NCBI GenBank assembly: GCA_013360875.1
Contig: JABWAU010000007.1
Coordinates: 1-59,318, forward strand
Direction of reading: 5' to 3'
DNA from: Anaerolineales bacterium
Lineage (GTDB): Bacteria > Chloroflexota > Anaerolineae > Anaerolineales > Villigracilaceae
Length of the DNA stretch: 59,318 nt
Shown: one piece after another, positions 28,897 to 46,410 of the stretch
Layout of the letters: each line of letters starts with the position of its first letter
Numbering within the stretch: the stretch's first letter is position 1
Notes under the pieces: model-generated
Seen by the model: the letters and a program-made list of their open reading frames with translations, nothing else
Database searches by the model: none
What the model was told of the DNA's origin: nothing
Position numbers and translations under genes: made by a program

Positions 28897-30189
28897 CTAC
28901 TGCTGACTGCCCAACATCATCCTCGCCGCGCGCCTCCCGATCTCCACCGCAAAATTCGTCCCCCGATCCCATGGATAGACCTGACTCATCGAAGCGAAAT
29001 ACAATCCTTCAATTGGCGTCTGAATCGCAGGGATATTCCTCGAATGATTCACCAGCGGCACGGGCTGGGCGTAATTCGTCCGGTTCACCCAGACCTTCTT
29101 CACCCAATCCCGTTCGAACGCGGGATTGAATTTTTTAAAGGCAGGCAGGAAACGCTCCAGCAATTCCTCGTCGCTCAACGAAAAATACTCGTGCCCCGCC
29201 TCCAGATAATCTCCCGCGTACACGAGATGGTCGCCGCCGAAATGTTCCCTCGAAACAAAATTCGTATGCTCCACCAGCGCCAGAAACGGATAGCCCGCCT
29301 CCTTCGGCAGGTTGAACCAGTAATACCCTTCCCGCGATAATTGATGTTTCAACGACAACACCATTACCACCGCGCCCATGGACTTCAACTCGAGCAATCC
29401 CTTGAGATAATTTTCTGGAAGACCCGGACACATCCTCGCCATCAGATTCGGGGACGTGGTGACGAGGACTTGATCGAACGATTCGGATTTCCCCTCGCTT
29501 CGCACTGACAATTGAACCTGTTCCCGTTGAATGGACTCGACTCTCACCCCCAGCCGAATCTCCACACCCATCCCGCGCAGTTTCTCCGCGAACATGTCGG
29601 CGAATCGCTGAAAGCCTCCCTCGAACGTGCCGAGGCGCGTCGTCCGCGCCTTGATGCGCGCCCACATCCACGCCATGTTGACGTCTTTGTAATACGGACC
29701 GAACTTCCCGATCAGTAACGGCTTCCACATCTGCTCGTAGACGCGTTTACCCGCGTATTTGCACATCCATTCGTCGGCGGTGAATTGTTCGAGGGCTTTC
29801 CAGTTGTTCGTTAAACGGAGGAATAATCCGACGAAGCCAAAGCGAATTTTATCGAGACCAAACCCAAGTCCCGGAAAGAGAAGCGCCTTGAGGATCGAGT
29901 CGAAGGGATAAAATTTTCCGTCGTGATACATCACGGTCAGTGGACGAGGAAACATCACTTTGTCCATCCAGCCCAATTCCTCGATCAACGCGAGCATGTG
30001 CTTGTCGGATGCAAACCAGTGATGATAGAACTTCTCCACCGACCAGTCCCAATACGGCTCTTTGAATCCGCTTGCCAGCCCGCCCACGTATTCTGCGGAT
30101 TCGTAAATGGTCACCTCGTGCTCTGCTTTTCTCAAATCGTACGCGGCTGCCATGCCTCCAAACCCCGCGCCGATGATGGCGATTTTCAT
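28897..30189 (-). CDS. FAD-dependent amine-oxidase-type oxidoreductase
   Basis: The 430-residue flavoprotein has an N-terminal dinucleotide motif IIGAGFGGMAAAYDL (GxGxxG at 7-12) with the following acid at the end of strand 2 (IYESAEYVGG). It continues with RFADMFAEKLRGMGVEIRLG (substrate-domain helix) and ends with EGLYFASMSQVYPWDRGTNFAVEIGR, the C-terminal FAD loop. The overall layout fits protoporphyrinogen-oxidase/phytoene-desaturase-like amine oxidases; GKFGPYYKDVN is also reminiscent of UDP-galactopyranose mutase-like proteins. The substrate is unknown; an isoprenoid or sugar substrate is only a guess. Its 3' 93 bp are duplicated beyond the toxin-antitoxin cassette. Confidence 0.85.
   Translation of the reverse strand: MKIAIIGAGFGGMAAAYDLRKAEHEVTIYESAEYVGGLASGFKEPYWDWSVEKFYHHWFASDKHMLALIEELGWMDKVMFPRPLTVMYHDGKFYPFDSILKALLFPGLGFGLDKIRFGFVGLFLRLTNNWKALEQFTADEWMCKYAGKRVYEQMWKPLLIGKFGPYYKDVNMAWMWARIKARTTRLGTFEGGFQRFADMFAEKLRGMGVEIRLGVRVESIQREQVQLSVRSEGKSESFDQVLVTTSPNLMARMCPGLPENYLKGLLELKSMGAVVMVLSLKHQLSREGYYWFNLPKEAGYPFLALVEHTNFVSREHFGGDHLVYAGDYLEAGHEYFSLSDEELLERFLPAFKKFNPAFERDWVKKVWVNRTNYAQPVPLVNHSRNIPAIQTPIEGLYFASMSQVYPWDRGTNFAVEIGRRAARMMLGSQQ
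28915..29007 (-). repeat. Direct repeat of the oxidoreductase 3' end, inner (coding) copy
   Basis: The coding original of the 92-bp repeat at 28106-28197. The gene remains whole after the presumed insertion, as with elements that rebuild the 3' end of their target. Confidence 0.9.
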
Positions 30190-42276: not shown

Positions 42277-42393
42277 AAAGAGCGATTATACCGTTTCACG
42301 AAGTCCCGCTTCGACTACAGACCTCGCTCCGCTCGGTTTTCCGCTCAGCGCGATGGGGGTAAAATTTAGAAAATTTGTGCTATACTCCGCCGT

Positions 42394-42630
42394 ATGCCCA
42401 TCATCCGTTCATCAGAAATCGGAACCTACCTCTACTGCCGCCGCGCCTGGTGGTATAAAAAACAGGGATTTGAATCCGCGAATCAGACCGAACTCGCCGC
42501 CGGGACGGAACTCCACGTGCAGCACGGGCGGCAGGTATTGGCATCGTCCATCACGCGGACGGTGGGACTGATCCTGCTCATGGTTGCGCTGATCTTGCTG
42601 GTGGCGTATTGCGCGGCAAGAATCCTCTAA
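42394..42630 (+). CDS. Membrane-anchored Cas4-like N-terminal half (Cys1 and motif-I His)
   Basis: The 78-residue protein begins with SEIGTYLYCRRAWWYKKQG, a clear match to the N terminus of Cas4/Dna2-type Fe-S nucleases: the first cluster Cys (Cys15) followed by basic and aromatic residues. It also has GTELHVQHGRQ, corresponding to the motif-I His. A transmembrane helix at about 56-74 (TVGLILLMVALILLVAY) follows, and the protein stops there. The nuclease core and the other three cysteines are in the next gene, 64 nt on. The start follows a TATACT by 7 nt (42381-42386), suggesting a leaderless mRNA. Homology to Cas4 is by motif; function untested. Confidence 0.72.
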   Translation: MPIIRSSEIGTYLYCRRAWWYKKQGFESANQTELAAGTELHVQHGRQVLASSITRTVGLILLMVALILLVAYCAARIL

Positions 42631-42694
42631 TTCCCCAGTCTCCAATCCCTAATTACCAATTACCCCTCACGTATCCCGTAACTTGTAACTCGTT
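42631..42694. other. Word-like tract between the two Cas4-like genes
   Basis: CAGTCTCCAATCCCTAATTACC, AATTACC and CTTGTAACTCG words fill the 64 nt between the halves; TCTCCAATC and AATTACC recur before recF, the nucleotidyltransferase and the PucC-like gene. No Shine-Dalgarno is visible. Confidence 0.6.
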
Positions 42695-43207
42695 ATGCTC
42701 TACCTCTCCCTCGCCCTGCTCTTCTTCGCCTTTCTCTTCTTCTGGCAATCCAACCGCCAGCGGAAAGCCGCGGGTCTGCCCGGTGGGCGCGTCATTTACA
42801 CCGATACGCGCGGCTGGAGCAAACTGGAAAAACCGCTCTACTATGCCCCGCTCGATCTGACAGGCAAGCCCGATTACCTTATCGAACAGAATGGAAAAAT
42901 CATTCCCGTGGAGGTGAAATCAGGGCGCGCGCCCGAAGCGCCGTATGACTCGCATATCTATCAACTGGCATCGTATTGCCTGCTGGTGGAGAAAACCTAC
43001 GCCAAACGCCCCCCGTACGGAATCATTCATTATGAGAACCGCGACTTTGCCGTGGATTACACGCGTGAGTTGGAATCGTCCCTGCTCGACCTGCTGGCGG
43101 AGATGAATAGGGACGAACGCAGGAAAGAGCTCCCTCGATCACACGAGCAGGCGTCCCGTTGTAAGCGATGCGGGTTTCGGGATGTGTGCGATCAGAGACT
43201 GGGGTAA
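42695..43207 (+). CDS. Membrane-anchored Cas4-like nuclease core (PD-(D/E)xK, Cys2-4)
   Basis: The 170-residue protein starts with a transmembrane helix (1-17, LYLSLALLFFAFLFFWQ) and a basic SNRQRK stop, so the rest is cytoplasmic. The PD-(D/E)xK nuclease motifs are all present: GKPDYL (Asp60), PVEVKSG (Glu73, Lys75) and QLASY (Gln90, Tyr94). The C terminus has three cysteines, RCKRCGFRDVCDQRL (156, 159, 165), as in Cas4/Dna2 iron-sulfur nucleases. The fourth cluster Cys is missing here but present in the preceding protein. No CRISPR or other cas gene is nearby. A membrane-tethered repair or defence nuclease is possible. Confidence 0.82.
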   Translation: MLYLSLALLFFAFLFFWQSNRQRKAAGLPGGRVIYTDTRGWSKLEKPLYYAPLDLTGKPDYLIEQNGKIIPVEVKSGRAPEAPYDSHIYQLASYCLLVEKTYAKRPPYGIIHYENRDFAVDYTRELESSLLDLLAEMNRDERRKELPRSHEQASRCKRCGFRDVCDQRLG

Positions 43208-43288: not shown

Positions 43289-44152
43289 ATGCCCGATCCT
43301 TTTATCCCCAAACGCCCCGTCATCACAGCCTATCCGCGGATGCCCGAGGCATCCGCGGAAGCGGAGGCAATGTCCGCCTATTTCAAGGAAAAGGGGATGG
43401 ACGCGCCGTTCGGTTCTCTTTATGACGAGGACCTGCGCAGGCGGGTGCGGAACCGGGAATTCGACATGCTTGTCATTGCGGGCGGCGATGGGAGCGTCCT
43501 CCGCGCGGGTCACTTGTGCGCTCCTCTCGGTTTGCCGATCCTCGGGGTCAATTTGGGCAGGCTTGGGTTTCTGATCCAGGTTGATCGTCACGAATGGCGC
43601 GAATACTTCGATAAATTATTGAACGGCGAAGCGTGGATCGAAAACCGCATGATGCTCCACGCGGAACACATTCGCGCGGGCGACTCGCAAGGCACGTGGA
43701 ACGCGTTGAACGAAGTTGTCGTCGGGCGCGGACAGATCCTGCGCCCGGTGCGGCTTTCCGCCTCGGTTGACGGACGTCACCTGACAAGTTACGTCACTGA
43801 TGGGTTGATCGCCTCCACCGCTACAGGTTCGACCGCGTACGCTCTCGCGGCGGGTGGACCGATCCTGCCGCCCGAACTGCGCAACATCCTGCTCGTGCCG
43901 ATCGCGCCGCATCTTTCCGTGGACCGCGCGGTTGTCCTCTCCGAAGGTTCTACGGTGAGCATCCTTGTGCGAGGCGACAACGCCGTCCTGAGCGTTGACG
44001 GGCAGCCTTCGATCGTGCTGATGGAGGATGACCGCGTGGATATCCGCGCCGCAGACGTGACCGCGCAATTCGTCCGTTTTGGGGATCCGGGTTACTTCTA
44101 TCGAAACCTGACCGCGCACATGAACGAGAACTCTTTGGGATTGCCGAGATGA
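43289..44152 (+). CDS. nadK: NAD kinase
   Basis: The 287-residue kinase phosphorylates NAD to NADP. It has the glycine-rich VIAGGDGSVLRA (GGDG motif, about 66-71), LGRLGF, NALNEVVVGRG (the NE/D motif), and TDGLIASTATGSTAYALAAGGP. The C-terminal VSILVRGDN, LSVDGQ strands close the fold. The start at 43289 lies 6 nt after TATAAT, so translation is probably leaderless. nadK-recN neighbourhood is common in bacteria. It overlaps the next gene by 4 nt (ATGA). Confidence 0.95.
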   Translation: MPDPFIPKRPVITAYPRMPEASAEAEAMSAYFKEKGMDAPFGSLYDEDLRRRVRNREFDMLVIAGGDGSVLRAGHLCAPLGLPILGVNLGRLGFLIQVDRHEWREYFDKLLNGEAWIENRMMLHAEHIRAGDSQGTWNALNEVVVGRGQILRPVRLSASVDGRHLTSYVTDGLIASTATGSTAYALAAGGPILPPELRNILLVPIAPHLSVDRAVVLSEGSTVSILVRGDNAVLSVDGQPSIVLMEDDRVDIRAADVTAQFVRFGDPGYFYRNLTAHMNENSLGLPR

Positions 44153-44676
44153 CCGAAAAAACACCCGAGACCCTCTATTGCTACGTGCATCCGAACCGCG
44201 AAACCTCCCTGCGTTGTAATAACTGCAACCGCCCGATCTGTGCCTCGTGCGCGGTCCGCACACCGACGGGCTATCGCTGCAGGGAATGTGTGCGTGAGCG
44301 GCGCAAGACCTTTGACACAGCCGAATGGTATGACTATGTTTTGGGTTTTATCGCCGCGGCGTTTCTTTCGGGCATTGCGTCCTTCCTCGTCACGTTGATC
44401 GAGGGCATCGGATTCCTTGGCTGGTTCATCATTTTTTTCGGCGCGCCGACCGCAGCGATGACGATCGCTGAAGGGGTGCGCGCGGTCACACGCAAGCGTC
44501 GTTCGCGCCCGCTGTTCATCACGGTCGCTGTGGGTGTCGTGCTGGGCGCGGCGCCTTTCATACTGTTTCAACTGCTTGCCTTCGACGTTTTTGGCATCAT
44601 CTTCCAGGCGATCTATCTCGTCATTGTCACCCCTGTTGTGTACACGCGGCTTTCCGGAATCCAACTGTTCAGATAA
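44149..44676 (+). CDS. B-box-type zinc-finger membrane protein
   Basis: The 175-residue protein starts with a metal-binding domain of B-box type with eight ligands: Cys11, His14, Cys23, Cys26, Cys31, Cys34, Cys44 and Cys47 (CYVHPNRETSLRCNNCNRPI, then CASC and CREC). Three or four transmembrane helices follow at about 62-85, 90-108 and 122-168. Such N-terminal zinc-ribbon plus TM proteins are widespread in Chloroflexota and Actinobacteria, with unknown roles; rhomboid-like partners are sometimes found but not here. It sits between nadK and recN, coupled to both (ATGA, then 3 nt). Confidence 0.82.
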   Translation: MTEKTPETLYCYVHPNRETSLRCNNCNRPICASCAVRTPTGYRCRECVRERRKTFDTAEWYDYVLGFIAAAFLSGIASFLVTLIEGIGFLGWFIIFFGAPTAAMTIAEGVRAVTRKRRSRPLFITVAVGVVLGAAPFILFQLLAFDVFGIIFQAIYLVIVTPVVYTRLSGIQLFR

Positions 44677-44679
44677 ACC

Positions 44680-46410
44680 ATGCTAACCGAACTCCACATC
44701 CAAAACTTCGCGATCATAGATAAACTCGACCTGCGCTTCGGGCCCGGTCTCATCATCCTCACCGGCGAGACGGGCGCCGGCAAATCCATCATCCTCGACG
44801 CCGTAGTCATGCTCATCGGCGGGAAGGCAGATACCACCTTCGTCCGCACAGAGTCAGACGCGGCGCTGGTCGAGGGGGTGTTCCAGTTGAAAGGTCCAGA
44901 AAGAGAAGCGGTGCATGAGATTCTGAATCGCGAAGAGTTGATGGACGACCCCGATTACGTGACCCTCTCCCGCGAGATCCGCAAGGAGGGACGGAGCGTG
45001 GCGCGCGTCAACGGGCGGACTGTCGCTGTCTCGTTGTTGAAGGAGATCGGCGCGCTCGTGGTGGACATCCACGGGCAGGCGGAACATTTGTCTCTGCTCG
45101 ATTCACGCGCACACCTGGGCCTGCTCGACCGCTACGCCGAAATTTCACGACCCCTCAGCGATTATCGCCAGACCTACCATGCCTTGTTGAACCTGCGCCG
45201 CGAGTTGAACGAACTGCGAAAGGCGCAAGCCGATGCCGACCGGCGCATCGAGATGTTGACGTATCAGGCGGAGGAGATCGAAGCCGCGCGTTTGAAGGTG
45301 GGCGAGGATGAGGAGTTGCGTCACGAACGTGACCGGCTTGCCAACGCCGAGTCGCTAGCGCAGAACGCACAGGAGGCGCTTGCAATCCTCGATGAAGGCT
45401 CGCCCGAAATGCCCGCCGCAAGCGACCTTATCGGGCAGGCCGCGCAGGCATTGAGCGCGCTGGCAAAACTCGACCCGGCGCAAAATGAATTGGCGAACCA
45501 GGCGGAAGTGTTGCTCGATACGATCTCCGAGATCGTCCATAACCTGCGGAACTATCTGGACGAAATCGAGTTCAATCCGAAGCGGCTCGACGAAGTGGAG
45601 GAACGGCTCGACCTGATCCATTCTTTGACTCGCAAGTATGGTGGAAGCATTCCTGCAGTCATCGCCTACGGACAGGACGCGCGCAGGCAACTGGAGACGA
45701 TCACGGGCGCGGTGGAACGTATTGAGATGCTCGAACTGGAGGAGGCGAACCTGTTGCATCAACTCGCCCGGCAGGGCGGCGCGTTGAGCGAAAAACGCAA
45801 GTCCGCCGCGGAGGCAATGAGCAAAGGCATCGAATCCGAACTCAACGATTTGCGGATGTCCGCCGCGAAATTCCGCGTGGACTTTCAGACCAAGCCCGAC
45901 CCGAACGGCGTCCCCATCGAAAACGGCAACCGCGTCGCCTTCGACCAAAACGGATTCGACAAGGTGGAATTTTTCATCGCCCCGAACCCCGGCGAGGGAC
46001 TCAAGCCGCTGGTCAAGATCGCTTCGGGCGGCGAGACCTCGCGTTTGATGCTGGGGTTGAAGAATGTGCTGGCGCGCGCCGACGAGGTGCCGTCGCTTAT
46101 TTTCGATGAAATTGACCAGGGCATCGGCGGGCGCGTGGGGATGATCGTCGGGCAGAAGTTATGGAATCTTTCGCGAACGCATCAAGTCTTCTGCGTGACG
46201 CACCTCCCGCAGTTGGCGGTCTTTGGCGACGAGCATTATCAGGTGCAGAAGTTGGTACAGGGTAACCGCACGTTGACGCGCGTCGAACGGCTCGATGGGG
46301 AGGCGCGCCTGCTCGAACTCTCGCAAATGCTCGGCGAAGTGGGCGAAGGAACTCTCAGGTCGGCGCACGAGTTGATGCAGGTTTCTAGGCAGATGATCAA
46401 GGGAAAGTAG
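44680..46410 (+). CDS. recN: DNA repair protein RecN
   Basis: The 576-residue SMC-like ATPase acts in double-strand-break repair. The head has LHIQNFAIIDKLDLRFGPG and Walker A LTGETGAGKSIILDA (about 28-42), then VVDIHGQAEHLSLLD. Two coiled-coil arms (about 160-370) with the usual Leu/Glu heptads follow. The C-terminal half supplies the signature KIASGGETSRLMLGL and Walker B SLIFDEIDQGIGG with VFCVTHLPQLA (D-loop/switch). Length is typical. The gene follows the zinc-finger protein by 3 nt, in the nadK operon. Confidence 0.96.
   Translation: MLTELHIQNFAIIDKLDLRFGPGLIILTGETGAGKSIILDAVVMLIGGKADTTFVRTESDAALVEGVFQLKGPEREAVHEILNREELMDDPDYVTLSREIRKEGRSVARVNGRTVAVSLLKEIGALVVDIHGQAEHLSLLDSRAHLGLLDRYAEISRPLSDYRQTYHALLNLRRELNELRKAQADADRRIEMLTYQAEEIEAARLKVGEDEELRHERDRLANAESLAQNAQEALAILDEGSPEMPAASDLIGQAAQALSALAKLDPAQNELANQAEVLLDTISEIVHNLRNYLDEIEFNPKRLDEVEERLDLIHSLTRKYGGSIPAVIAYGQDARRQLETITGAVERIEMLELEEANLLHQLARQGGALSEKRKSAAEAMSKGIESELNDLRMSAAKFRVDFQTKPDPNGVPIENGNRVAFDQNGFDKVEFFIAPNPGEGLKPLVKIASGGETSRLMLGLKNVLARADEVPSLIFDEIDQGIGGRVGMIVGQKLWNLSRTHQVFCVTHLPQLAVFGDEHYQVQKLVQGNRTLTRVERLDGEARLLELSQMLGEVGEGTLRSAHELMQVSRQMIKGK

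Follow-up and report, generated by a model that had tools for sequence, protein, structure and literature searches.

Can the active site of a nuclease be divided between two separate membrane proteins? The question is raised by two adjacent genes of an Anaerolineales bacterium (Chloroflexota, family Villigracilaceae; GenBank assembly GCA_013360875.1, contig JABWAU010000007.1), found in a stretch of 59,318 nucleotides (nt) that was analyzed as a whole and is here called the window. The original prediction, made from the letters of the window, had read their products, designated P1 and P2, as a membrane-tethered, two-subunit iron-sulfur (Fe-S) nuclease of the Cas4 type, and this reading is supported by conserved residues, a topology count and a modeled Cas4 fold. 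Very probably, P1 and P2 together constitute a two-subunit membrane nuclease of this type. Beyond what had been predicted, the pair recurs through much of the phylum, occurs on Bacillus and planctomycete plasmids, is independent of clustered regularly interspaced short palindromic repeats (CRISPR), and stands behind an SOS-like box in the window's family. The architecture is strongly supported, and regulation and gene neighborhood suggest a role in DNA damage.

A Cas4 domain divided between two proteins

The coordinates and translations of the open reading frames bore out both genes, their motifs and the two hydrophobic helices that had been described. The genes lie on the plus strand in different frames, 64 nt apart, and P2 also carries a QLASY motif in the window sequence (Table 1). 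Against the NCBIfam Cas4 profile TIGR00372, P1 matched profile positions 2 to 47 of 180 (E value, 1.1e-5; 25.4 bits, below the cut-off of 65) and P2 matched positions 56 to 178 (E value, 1.1e-21; 77.5 bits, above it), complementary ranges that agree with the predicted split of the Cas4 signature. Scores with PF01930 were 43.5 for P2, above the cut-off of 22.7, and 15.5 for P1, below it, and the PADLOC and Pfam profiles agreed with TIGR00372 on Cas4 for both proteins. P1 and P2 thus jointly span the Cas4 domain, and the break between them is flanked by two hydrophobic helices. Such a composite enzyme is easily missed, because the NCBIfam model names P2 as Cas4 and does not name P1.

Conservation was assessed in 241 nonidentical pairs drawn from 261 loci with both genes. 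The set excludes identical pairs, P1 matches weaker than an E value of 1e-8 (for example, L195) and the P2 loci with no nearby P1 match (L030, L087, L093, L096, L099 to L105, L111, L128, L144, L255, and L269); also left out were L112 and three loci that resemble ordinary single-chain Cas4 (L149, L150, and L152). Four cysteines of the Fe-S type, distributed over the two chains, were near-invariant, as was the catalytic centre (Table 1), in which Gln90 and Tyr94 of P2 were kept in 239 and 236 pairs, respectively. A P1 homolog without the first cysteine would have spoken against the predicted split, and the only three sequences without a residue at that position were alignment gaps. Ratios of nonsynonymous to synonymous substitution (dN/dS) to close relatives were 0.06 and 0.11 for P1, with saturation in two of its four comparisons, and 0.07 to 0.12 for P2. 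Membrane helices were scored by hydropathy (17-residue window above 1.6; Table 1), and a simple charge count fitted the predicted positive-inside topology, with the P1 N terminus inside in 216 of the 241 pairs and the P2 C terminus inside in 196.

The usual Cas4 is one polypeptide without a membrane helix, a form that is not part of the family profile definition, whereas all 241 pairs consisted of two genes. Given the two genes and the hydrophobic helices at the break, the pair was therefore classed as a variant that works like Cas4: fold, residues and profile place it in the family, and its two chains and membrane helices set it apart from the usual form.

In many loci P1 and P2 share a frame with a stop codon between them, so that natural read-through chains could be folded. 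The AlphaFold2 models are single read-through P1-P2 chains of two relatives and not two-chain complexes, and were built on alignments (A6 and A7) that replaced two earlier ones, in which the P2 helices had been placed on the P1 helix (A4) or P1 rows had been misplaced (A5). The model of a Roseiflexus-type relative (L239), with two residues between the halves, had a mean predicted local distance difference test score (pLDDT) of 93.0 and a predicted template modeling score (pTM) of 0.88; that of a relative nearer to the window (L295), with a longer, low-confidence linker, gave 93.0 and 0.87. For both, the best solved match was the Cas4 part of PDB entry 7mi4, with Z scores of 19.0 (3.2 Å over 185 residues; L239) and 19.8 (2.8 Å over 177 residues; L295), the alignment starting at the first residues of P1 and extending to the end of P2. 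The next match was 8d3l (Z scores, 17.9 and 18.4), followed by AdnA and SSO0001 among others, and the top rows from Foldseek were also Cas4. In these models, then, a predicted Cas4 fold extends over both halves. Two long helices of the L239 model, residues 37 to 81 and 84 to 111, contain the membrane segments and are consistent with a hairpin.

TABLE 1 Coordinates of the P1-P2 locus and its downstream genes in the window
Feature	Position	Strand	Remarks
SOS-like box (GAAC-N4-GTTC type), TAGAAAATTTGTGCTATACT	42367..42386	+	Overlaps a -10-like TATACT; ends 7 nt before the P1 start codon
P1	42394..42630	+	78 amino acids; N-terminal part of the Cas4 domain (Cys15, His41) and C-terminal membrane helix
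P1 Cys15 codon	42436..42438	+	Presumed first Fe-S cysteine; Cys in 238 of 241 pairs, 3 gaps
P1 His41 codon	42514..42516	+	Motif-I-like histidine; kept in 236 of 241 pairs
P1 membrane helix (approximate)	42559..42612	+	Hydropathy in 241 of 241 pairs; helical in both models
P2	42695..43207	+	170 amino acids; N-terminal membrane helix, PD-(D/E)XK core, three C-terminal cysteines
P2 membrane helix (approximate)	42698..42745	+	Strict hydropathy threshold exceeded in 173 of 241 pairs
P2 Asp60-to-Lys75 codons	42872..42919	+	Catalytic Asp60 and Glu73-x-Lys75; Asp60, Glu73, and Lys75 in 239, 237, and 239 of 241 pairs
P2 Cys156-to-Cys165 codons	43160..43189	+	Cys156, Cys159, and Cys165 in 240, 241, and 240 of 241 pairs
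NAD kinase-like gene (presumed NADK)	43289..44152	+	Conserved downstream; homolog near P2 in at least 87 of 228 loci
B-box zinc-finger membrane protein	44149..44676	+	Conserved downstream; at least 69 of 228 loci; Pfam zf-B_box on homolog
RecN-like DNA repair ATPase (presumed RecN)	44680..46410	+	Conserved downstream; at least 80 of 228 loci

The space between the two genes (42631 to 42694) holds a C/T-rich run of like words (ccagtctccaatccctaattaccaattacc) that resembles an intergenic repeat of the lineage, and by eye the corresponding gap of locus L295 contains similar text.

Retention and co-variation of the two halves

Of the 152 genomes of the window's family, 137 have P2 and 134 have P1. 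Both occurred together in 134 genomes, P2 alone in three (G029, G128, and G149) and P1 alone in none, and 15 genomes had neither (Fisher test, 4e-18, a statistic that ignores relatedness). P2 matches, a few of them weak, were present in 198 of the 251 genomes of the order. Across the phylum, 148 of 400 genomes gave a match at an E value of 1e-3, ordinary Cas4 included, and by a count from the match table the best P2 E value was 1e-15 or lower in 123 of the 400. Among the best 80 of 518 relatives from a scan of named genomes were Roseiflexus, Chloroflexus, Oscillochloris, Herpetosiphon aurantiacus DSM 785, Anaerolineae and other Chloroflexota, together with two sequences titled simply "bacterium" and a metagenome-assembled genome labeled Candidatus Gracilibacteria (L255). 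The P2 of the latter is 60% identical to the Roseiflexus-type query, and our guess is that the genome is probably mislabeled or contaminated and does not represent a transfer.

In all 241 pairs P1 precedes P2 on the same strand, and no natural P1-P2 fusion with a membrane hairpin was found among the loci with both genes. The genes overlapped or abutted in 39 pairs and were separated by 1 to 50 nt in 129, by 51 to 300 nt in 43, and by more in 30, so that the pair is conserved and adjacent or nearly so in most loci examined, the reverse of the never-adjacent genes that would have counted against the original prediction. In the 20 large-gap loci inspected, other genes had been inserted between P1 and P2. 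Some of these loci have genes that we take to encode HEAT-like repeat proteins, for which Pfam gave only a subthreshold PDS5 match; elsewhere the inserted products are unassigned or, as we read them, L,D-transpeptidase-like.

The most telling comparative evidence came from genomes in which the two genes are not linked. In 11 genomes where P2 had no P1 within about 4 kb (those of L093, L096, L099 to L105, L111, and L128), a profile search located P1 elsewhere in each; the search matched 12 of 12 genomes, one of which (G188) proved to be linked. Where both genes lay on a single contig, they were about 182 kb (G651), 887 kb (G609) and, by coordinate, 2.8 Mb (G540) apart, and in the genome of L087 P1 was on another contig. 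The neighbors of P1 in the unlinked genomes included no informative genes. Since the halves have been kept together in the genome after the loss of linkage, this constitutes strong comparative evidence that both are needed. One further genome (G550) carries an interrupted P2 copy (L144) alongside an intact pair (L145).

Co-variation between the halves was analyzed by mean-field direct coupling analysis on the joined P1-P2 alignment (effective number, 170), with nulls in which partners were swapped among near relatives as a control for relatedness. Inter-protein pairs made up 22 of the top 60 couplings. The strongest, at 12 standard deviations, joined position 6 of P1 to position 93 of P2, where the residues were Ala/Ala in 188 pairs, Ser/Ser in 35, and Ala/Ser in 6. 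The top 20 inter-protein couplings had a mean of 5.01 standard deviations, compared with 3.27 ± 0.11 (largest, 3.42) in 12 nulls.

The two halves also lose residues jointly. Four of the 241 pairs have a P2 without Glu73, and in these His41 and Gly37 of P1 were either changed (L139, L142, and L143) or gapped (L148); His41 was changed in one of the 237 pairs that keep Glu73 versus changed or missing in all four that do not (Fisher test, 4e-8). The motif-I histidine of Cas4 binds metal, and joint loss of His41 and Glu73 is what would be expected from a shared metal site. Three of the four members belong to one family (f39) and therefore do not represent four independent events. All four are distant members that have lost catalytic residues in both halves and kept Cys15, and a structural role for them is possible.

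Outside the phylum, a tblastn search of plasmids with P2 returned four records, three Bacillus subtilis plasmids and PALBO2 of Paludisphaera borealis, to which the Paludisphaera P2 as query added Singulisphaera and Planctomyces sp. SH-PL62. P1 was present in all three Bacillus plasmids; in two of the Bacillus records, PALBO2 and the Singulisphaera record, it lies directly upstream of P2, annotated as a hypothetical protein. In a set of 12 proteins, the P1 profile matched the Bacillus proteins with E values of 2e-17 and 1e-17 and two planctomycete proteins with 5e-13, and the P2 profile matched the plasmid partners with 1e-33 to 2e-24. The SH-PL62 record has an interrupted P2 and showed no P1. 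The pairs on the Bacillus plasmids (L329, 11682 to 12420; L325, 2685 to 3423) follow a gene for a helicase C-terminal domain and one small gene and are followed by hfq; those of Paludisphaera and Singulisphaera, two of the three planctomycete records, adjoin DNA methylase genes, one of them with a MobF relaxase. The Bacillus copies make the pair testable in a laboratory species.

The SOS-like box and the gene neighborhood

Immediately before P1 lies an SOS-like box, of the consensus type known from Bacillus (GAAC-N4-GTTC), and the P1 mRNA is probably leaderless. The pattern matched once in the window, against 0.01 matches expected. In the genome as a whole, the window pattern had seven sites with three or fewer mismatches versus none for the reversed pattern, and the genome consensus AGAACATNTGTKCTATACT had 15 sites versus 2. 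Six consensus sites with at most one mismatch stand before the P1-P2 operon, a recA-like gene, an FtsK-like gene, a gene resembling transporters of the major facilitator superfamily, and two unclear genes. The P1 box has one mismatch to the consensus, that of the recA-like gene none, that of a TIGR03916-like gene two and that of a uvrA-like gene three; the RecA, UvrA and TIGR03916 matches were made with partial sequences and scored below the full-length cut-offs.

Individual boxes in the genome were located at C163:2208-2226 (recA-like; L340), C47:47091-47109 (uvrA-like; L348), C96:3403-3421 (TIGR03916-like DNA-modification/repair radical SAM protein; L345), C10:5151-5169 (L346), and C131:8428-8446 (L344), the last two before genes that we take to be YcaQ-like and FtsK-like. 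Judged from these sequences, the boxes possibly outline a DNA-damage regulon of this Chloroflexota genome. Two paralogous membrane-protein genes (L341, C182:41786-41804; L349/L350, C130:13814-13837) likewise have palindromic boxes, AGAACATCTGTTCT and AGAACAAGTGTTCT.

The box is a regular feature of the window's family (f1), in which it was found within 75 nt upstream of P1 in 49 of 52 loci (reversed-pattern control, 1); among named loci it preceded P1 in 11 of 77. In the other families of the order, a related box was found 1.45 to 1.9 kb upstream of P1 in 24 of 80 loci, reading AGTACAATTGTTCT in 22 of them (reversed control, two sites); 14 of the 47 loci that bear ssb have such a palindrome 32 to 226 nt upstream of the estimated start of ssb. 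Of the features of a LexA/SOS regulon, P1 thus has a promoter box in common with recA and uvrA, and a box before lexA was not found. LexA may be the regulator; with no box at the LexA-like gene, its control of the pair is therefore put forward as a conjecture, and the pair is not filed as a proven LexA target.

Gene neighborhoods were counted in 228 loci, some genomes entering twice and flanks ranging from 1.5 to 6 kb, so that the set is redundant and each count is a minimum. In addition to the conserved downstream genes (Table 1), the upstream neighbors included a translin-like gene in at least 74 loci, DUF3467 in at least 48 and the gene for single-stranded DNA-binding protein (SSB) in at least 47. 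The gene order in many other genomes of the order is ssb, DUF3467, translin-like, P1, P2, NADK, recN. Loci of the Chloroflexia type, so called from their named members, have upstream genes that we take to be RseP-like (57 loci), CdsA-like (27), UppS-like (21), PyrH-like (19), and Frr-like (17).

Proposed function and alternatives

How might the two proteins work? One helix per subunit would hold it in the cytoplasmic membrane, and the two helices would form a hairpin-like stalk beneath a nuclease in the cytoplasm. The motif-I histidine and the first cysteine of the Fe-S site would come from P1, and Asp60, Glu73, and Lys75 together with the last three cysteines from P2. With the ligands divided in this way, the Fe-S site and the metal site would each be composite, and neither protein would be expected to be active alone. 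In the window's family the operon begins with the SOS-like box. The likeliest job of the enzyme would be to trim or resect DNA that is damaged or single-stranded, at the membrane and as part of the response to DNA damage. As an overall explanation, we regard it as reasonably likely that P1 and P2 form a two-subunit Fe-S nuclease that is tethered to the membrane and serves in the DNA-damage response; taken by itself, a DNA-damage role for the two-subunit membrane nuclease is slightly favored. The broadest form of the proposal could equally well be right or wrong: that the inner membrane of Chloroflexota houses a DNA-damage station in which this SOS-inducible nuclease acts together with SSB, the translin-like protein and RecN, and that the enzyme, relatives of which are carried by plasmids of Bacillus and planctomycetes, has its active site and Fe-S cluster assembled between two membrane proteins.

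Several observations weigh against this explanation. The P2 helix exceeds the strict hydropathy threshold in just 173 of the 241 pairs, the catalytic Glu73 is lost in the four members discussed above, and the P1 match holds a TGA in 2 of the 11 unlinked genomes (G387 and G584). In the structure models the halves were helped to meet, because the read-through linker joins them in a single chain. On the regulatory side, none of 83 loci from the remaining families of the order had the box right before P1, and 1 of 45 others did; the uvrA, YcaQ-like and ssb-linked sites have three mismatches, a level at which the control gives 2 sites versus 15; and the 3,192 nt surrounding L337, the LexA-like gene, contained no box with five or fewer mismatches. 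The similarity to Translin is weak (E value, 9e-4, below the cut-off of that profile), and loci of the Chloroflexia type are flanked by housekeeping genes instead of repair genes.

Among the alternatives, the most serious is that the tethered nuclease defends the cell at the point of DNA entry, degrading DNA that arrives by transformation, conjugation or phage at the inner face of the membrane. The predicted tether suits such a role, as do the plasmid copies with their helicase-domain, methylase and relaxase genes. A precedent is offered by the Cas4-like nuclease of Synechococcus elongatus, which lowers the transfer or maintenance of RSF1010 replicons (PMC10653904) and keeps the idea alive, and the main text of a 2017 survey (PMC5704561) suggests defense or repair for solo-Cas4. 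We nevertheless consider entry defense unlikely, since the pair is present in 134 of 152 family genomes, in a housekeeping or repair neighborhood and behind an SOS-like box, and no relative was found in viral contigs or phage records at the thresholds and short patterns used. A role at the envelope or in cell division, in which the enzyme would cut DNA trapped at a closing septum or membrane independently of SOS, would account for the RseP-like gene upstream, often accompanied by CdsA- and UppS-like genes, and for the similar box of the gene presumed to be FtsK-like; this neighborhood is suggestive at most, the recA-, uvrA-, and TIGR03916-like genes carry the box as well, and the explanation appears improbable.

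Participation in CRISPR adaptation, with P1 and P2 serving as a Cas4 in trans for a distant Cas1-Cas2, is more doubtful still. It would fit the nearest solved structures, which are Cas4 in Cas4-Cas1-Cas2, and the window's genome does have cas1. Yet cas1 matches occur in 54 of the 152 family genomes, far fewer than contain the pair, and by subtraction P2 is present in 84 of the 98 without one; the only cas1 match of the window's genome lies on another contig (C41; the window is C123), beside an ordinary single-chain Cas4 of its own. A CRISPR-associated Cas4 is encoded with cas1 and cas2, and here cas1 is elsewhere. The predicted absence of a CRISPR array and of other cas genes held insofar as no family of short-spaced direct repeats was present in positions 30000 to 59318 and the sole cas1 match was off the contig, a defense scan of the whole window and cas2 having been outside the search. 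CRISPR association as a general role was accordingly rejected, as the pair does not track cas1 and the genome has its own cas1-linked Cas4. An artifact, that is, a frameshifted or degraded single-chain Cas4 or an assembly error, was also rejected and is almost certainly not the explanation: what is one polypeptide elsewhere is two here, and the SH-PL62 copy is broken and a Chloroflexota copy (L144) interrupted, but each of the 241 unique pairs has two separate reading frames, 11 genomes have the halves unlinked, the catalytic residues are near-invariant, and dN/dS is about 0.1.

According to the main text of the 2017 survey (Hudaiberdiev 2017, PMC5704561), solo-Cas4 is present and monophyletic in many Chloroflexi, with uncharacterized functions in defense or repair, and the function of Cas4 outside CRISPR is called uncharacterized. 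The solo-Cas4 of these Chloroflexi probably corresponds to P2. The words "transmembrane" and "split" are absent from that main text, "membrane" occurring once, in a gene name, and no membrane or split Cas4 was described in the literature searched, which lay outside subscription papers, preprints and supplements. A split membrane Cas4 that is kept with its SOS-like box in most genomes of a family makes a function of Cas4 outside CRISPR, namely, DNA processing at the membrane in the damage response, accessible to testing.

Compared with known systems, the pair resembles the solo-Cas4/Cas4 family (TIGR00372 and PF01930) in fold, D/E-x-K center, QxxxY motif and four cysteines, and differs in being two polypeptides, each with a membrane helix. 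RmuC is a membrane-anchored nuclease of the PD-(D/E)XK type and a possible functional analog, with a single chain and a different domain architecture. The Cas4 of the Cas4-Cas1-Cas2 entries, the best structural match (Z scores, 17.9 to 19.8 over 177 to 185 residues that span both halves), is bound to CRISPR and is a single chain or fused to Cas1, unlike P1-P2. In Dna2, AddB and AdnA the first cysteine is far in sequence from the last three; their nuclease domains share the PD-(D/E)XK fold with P1-P2 (Z scores of about 9 to 15), but these are large helicase-nucleases, and profile scans found no helicase domain in P1 or P2. The ACE1 protein of PDB entries 9iab and 9iac, by title an Argonaute-associated member of the Cas4 family and one chain in the entry, matched with Z scores of about 11 to 12.

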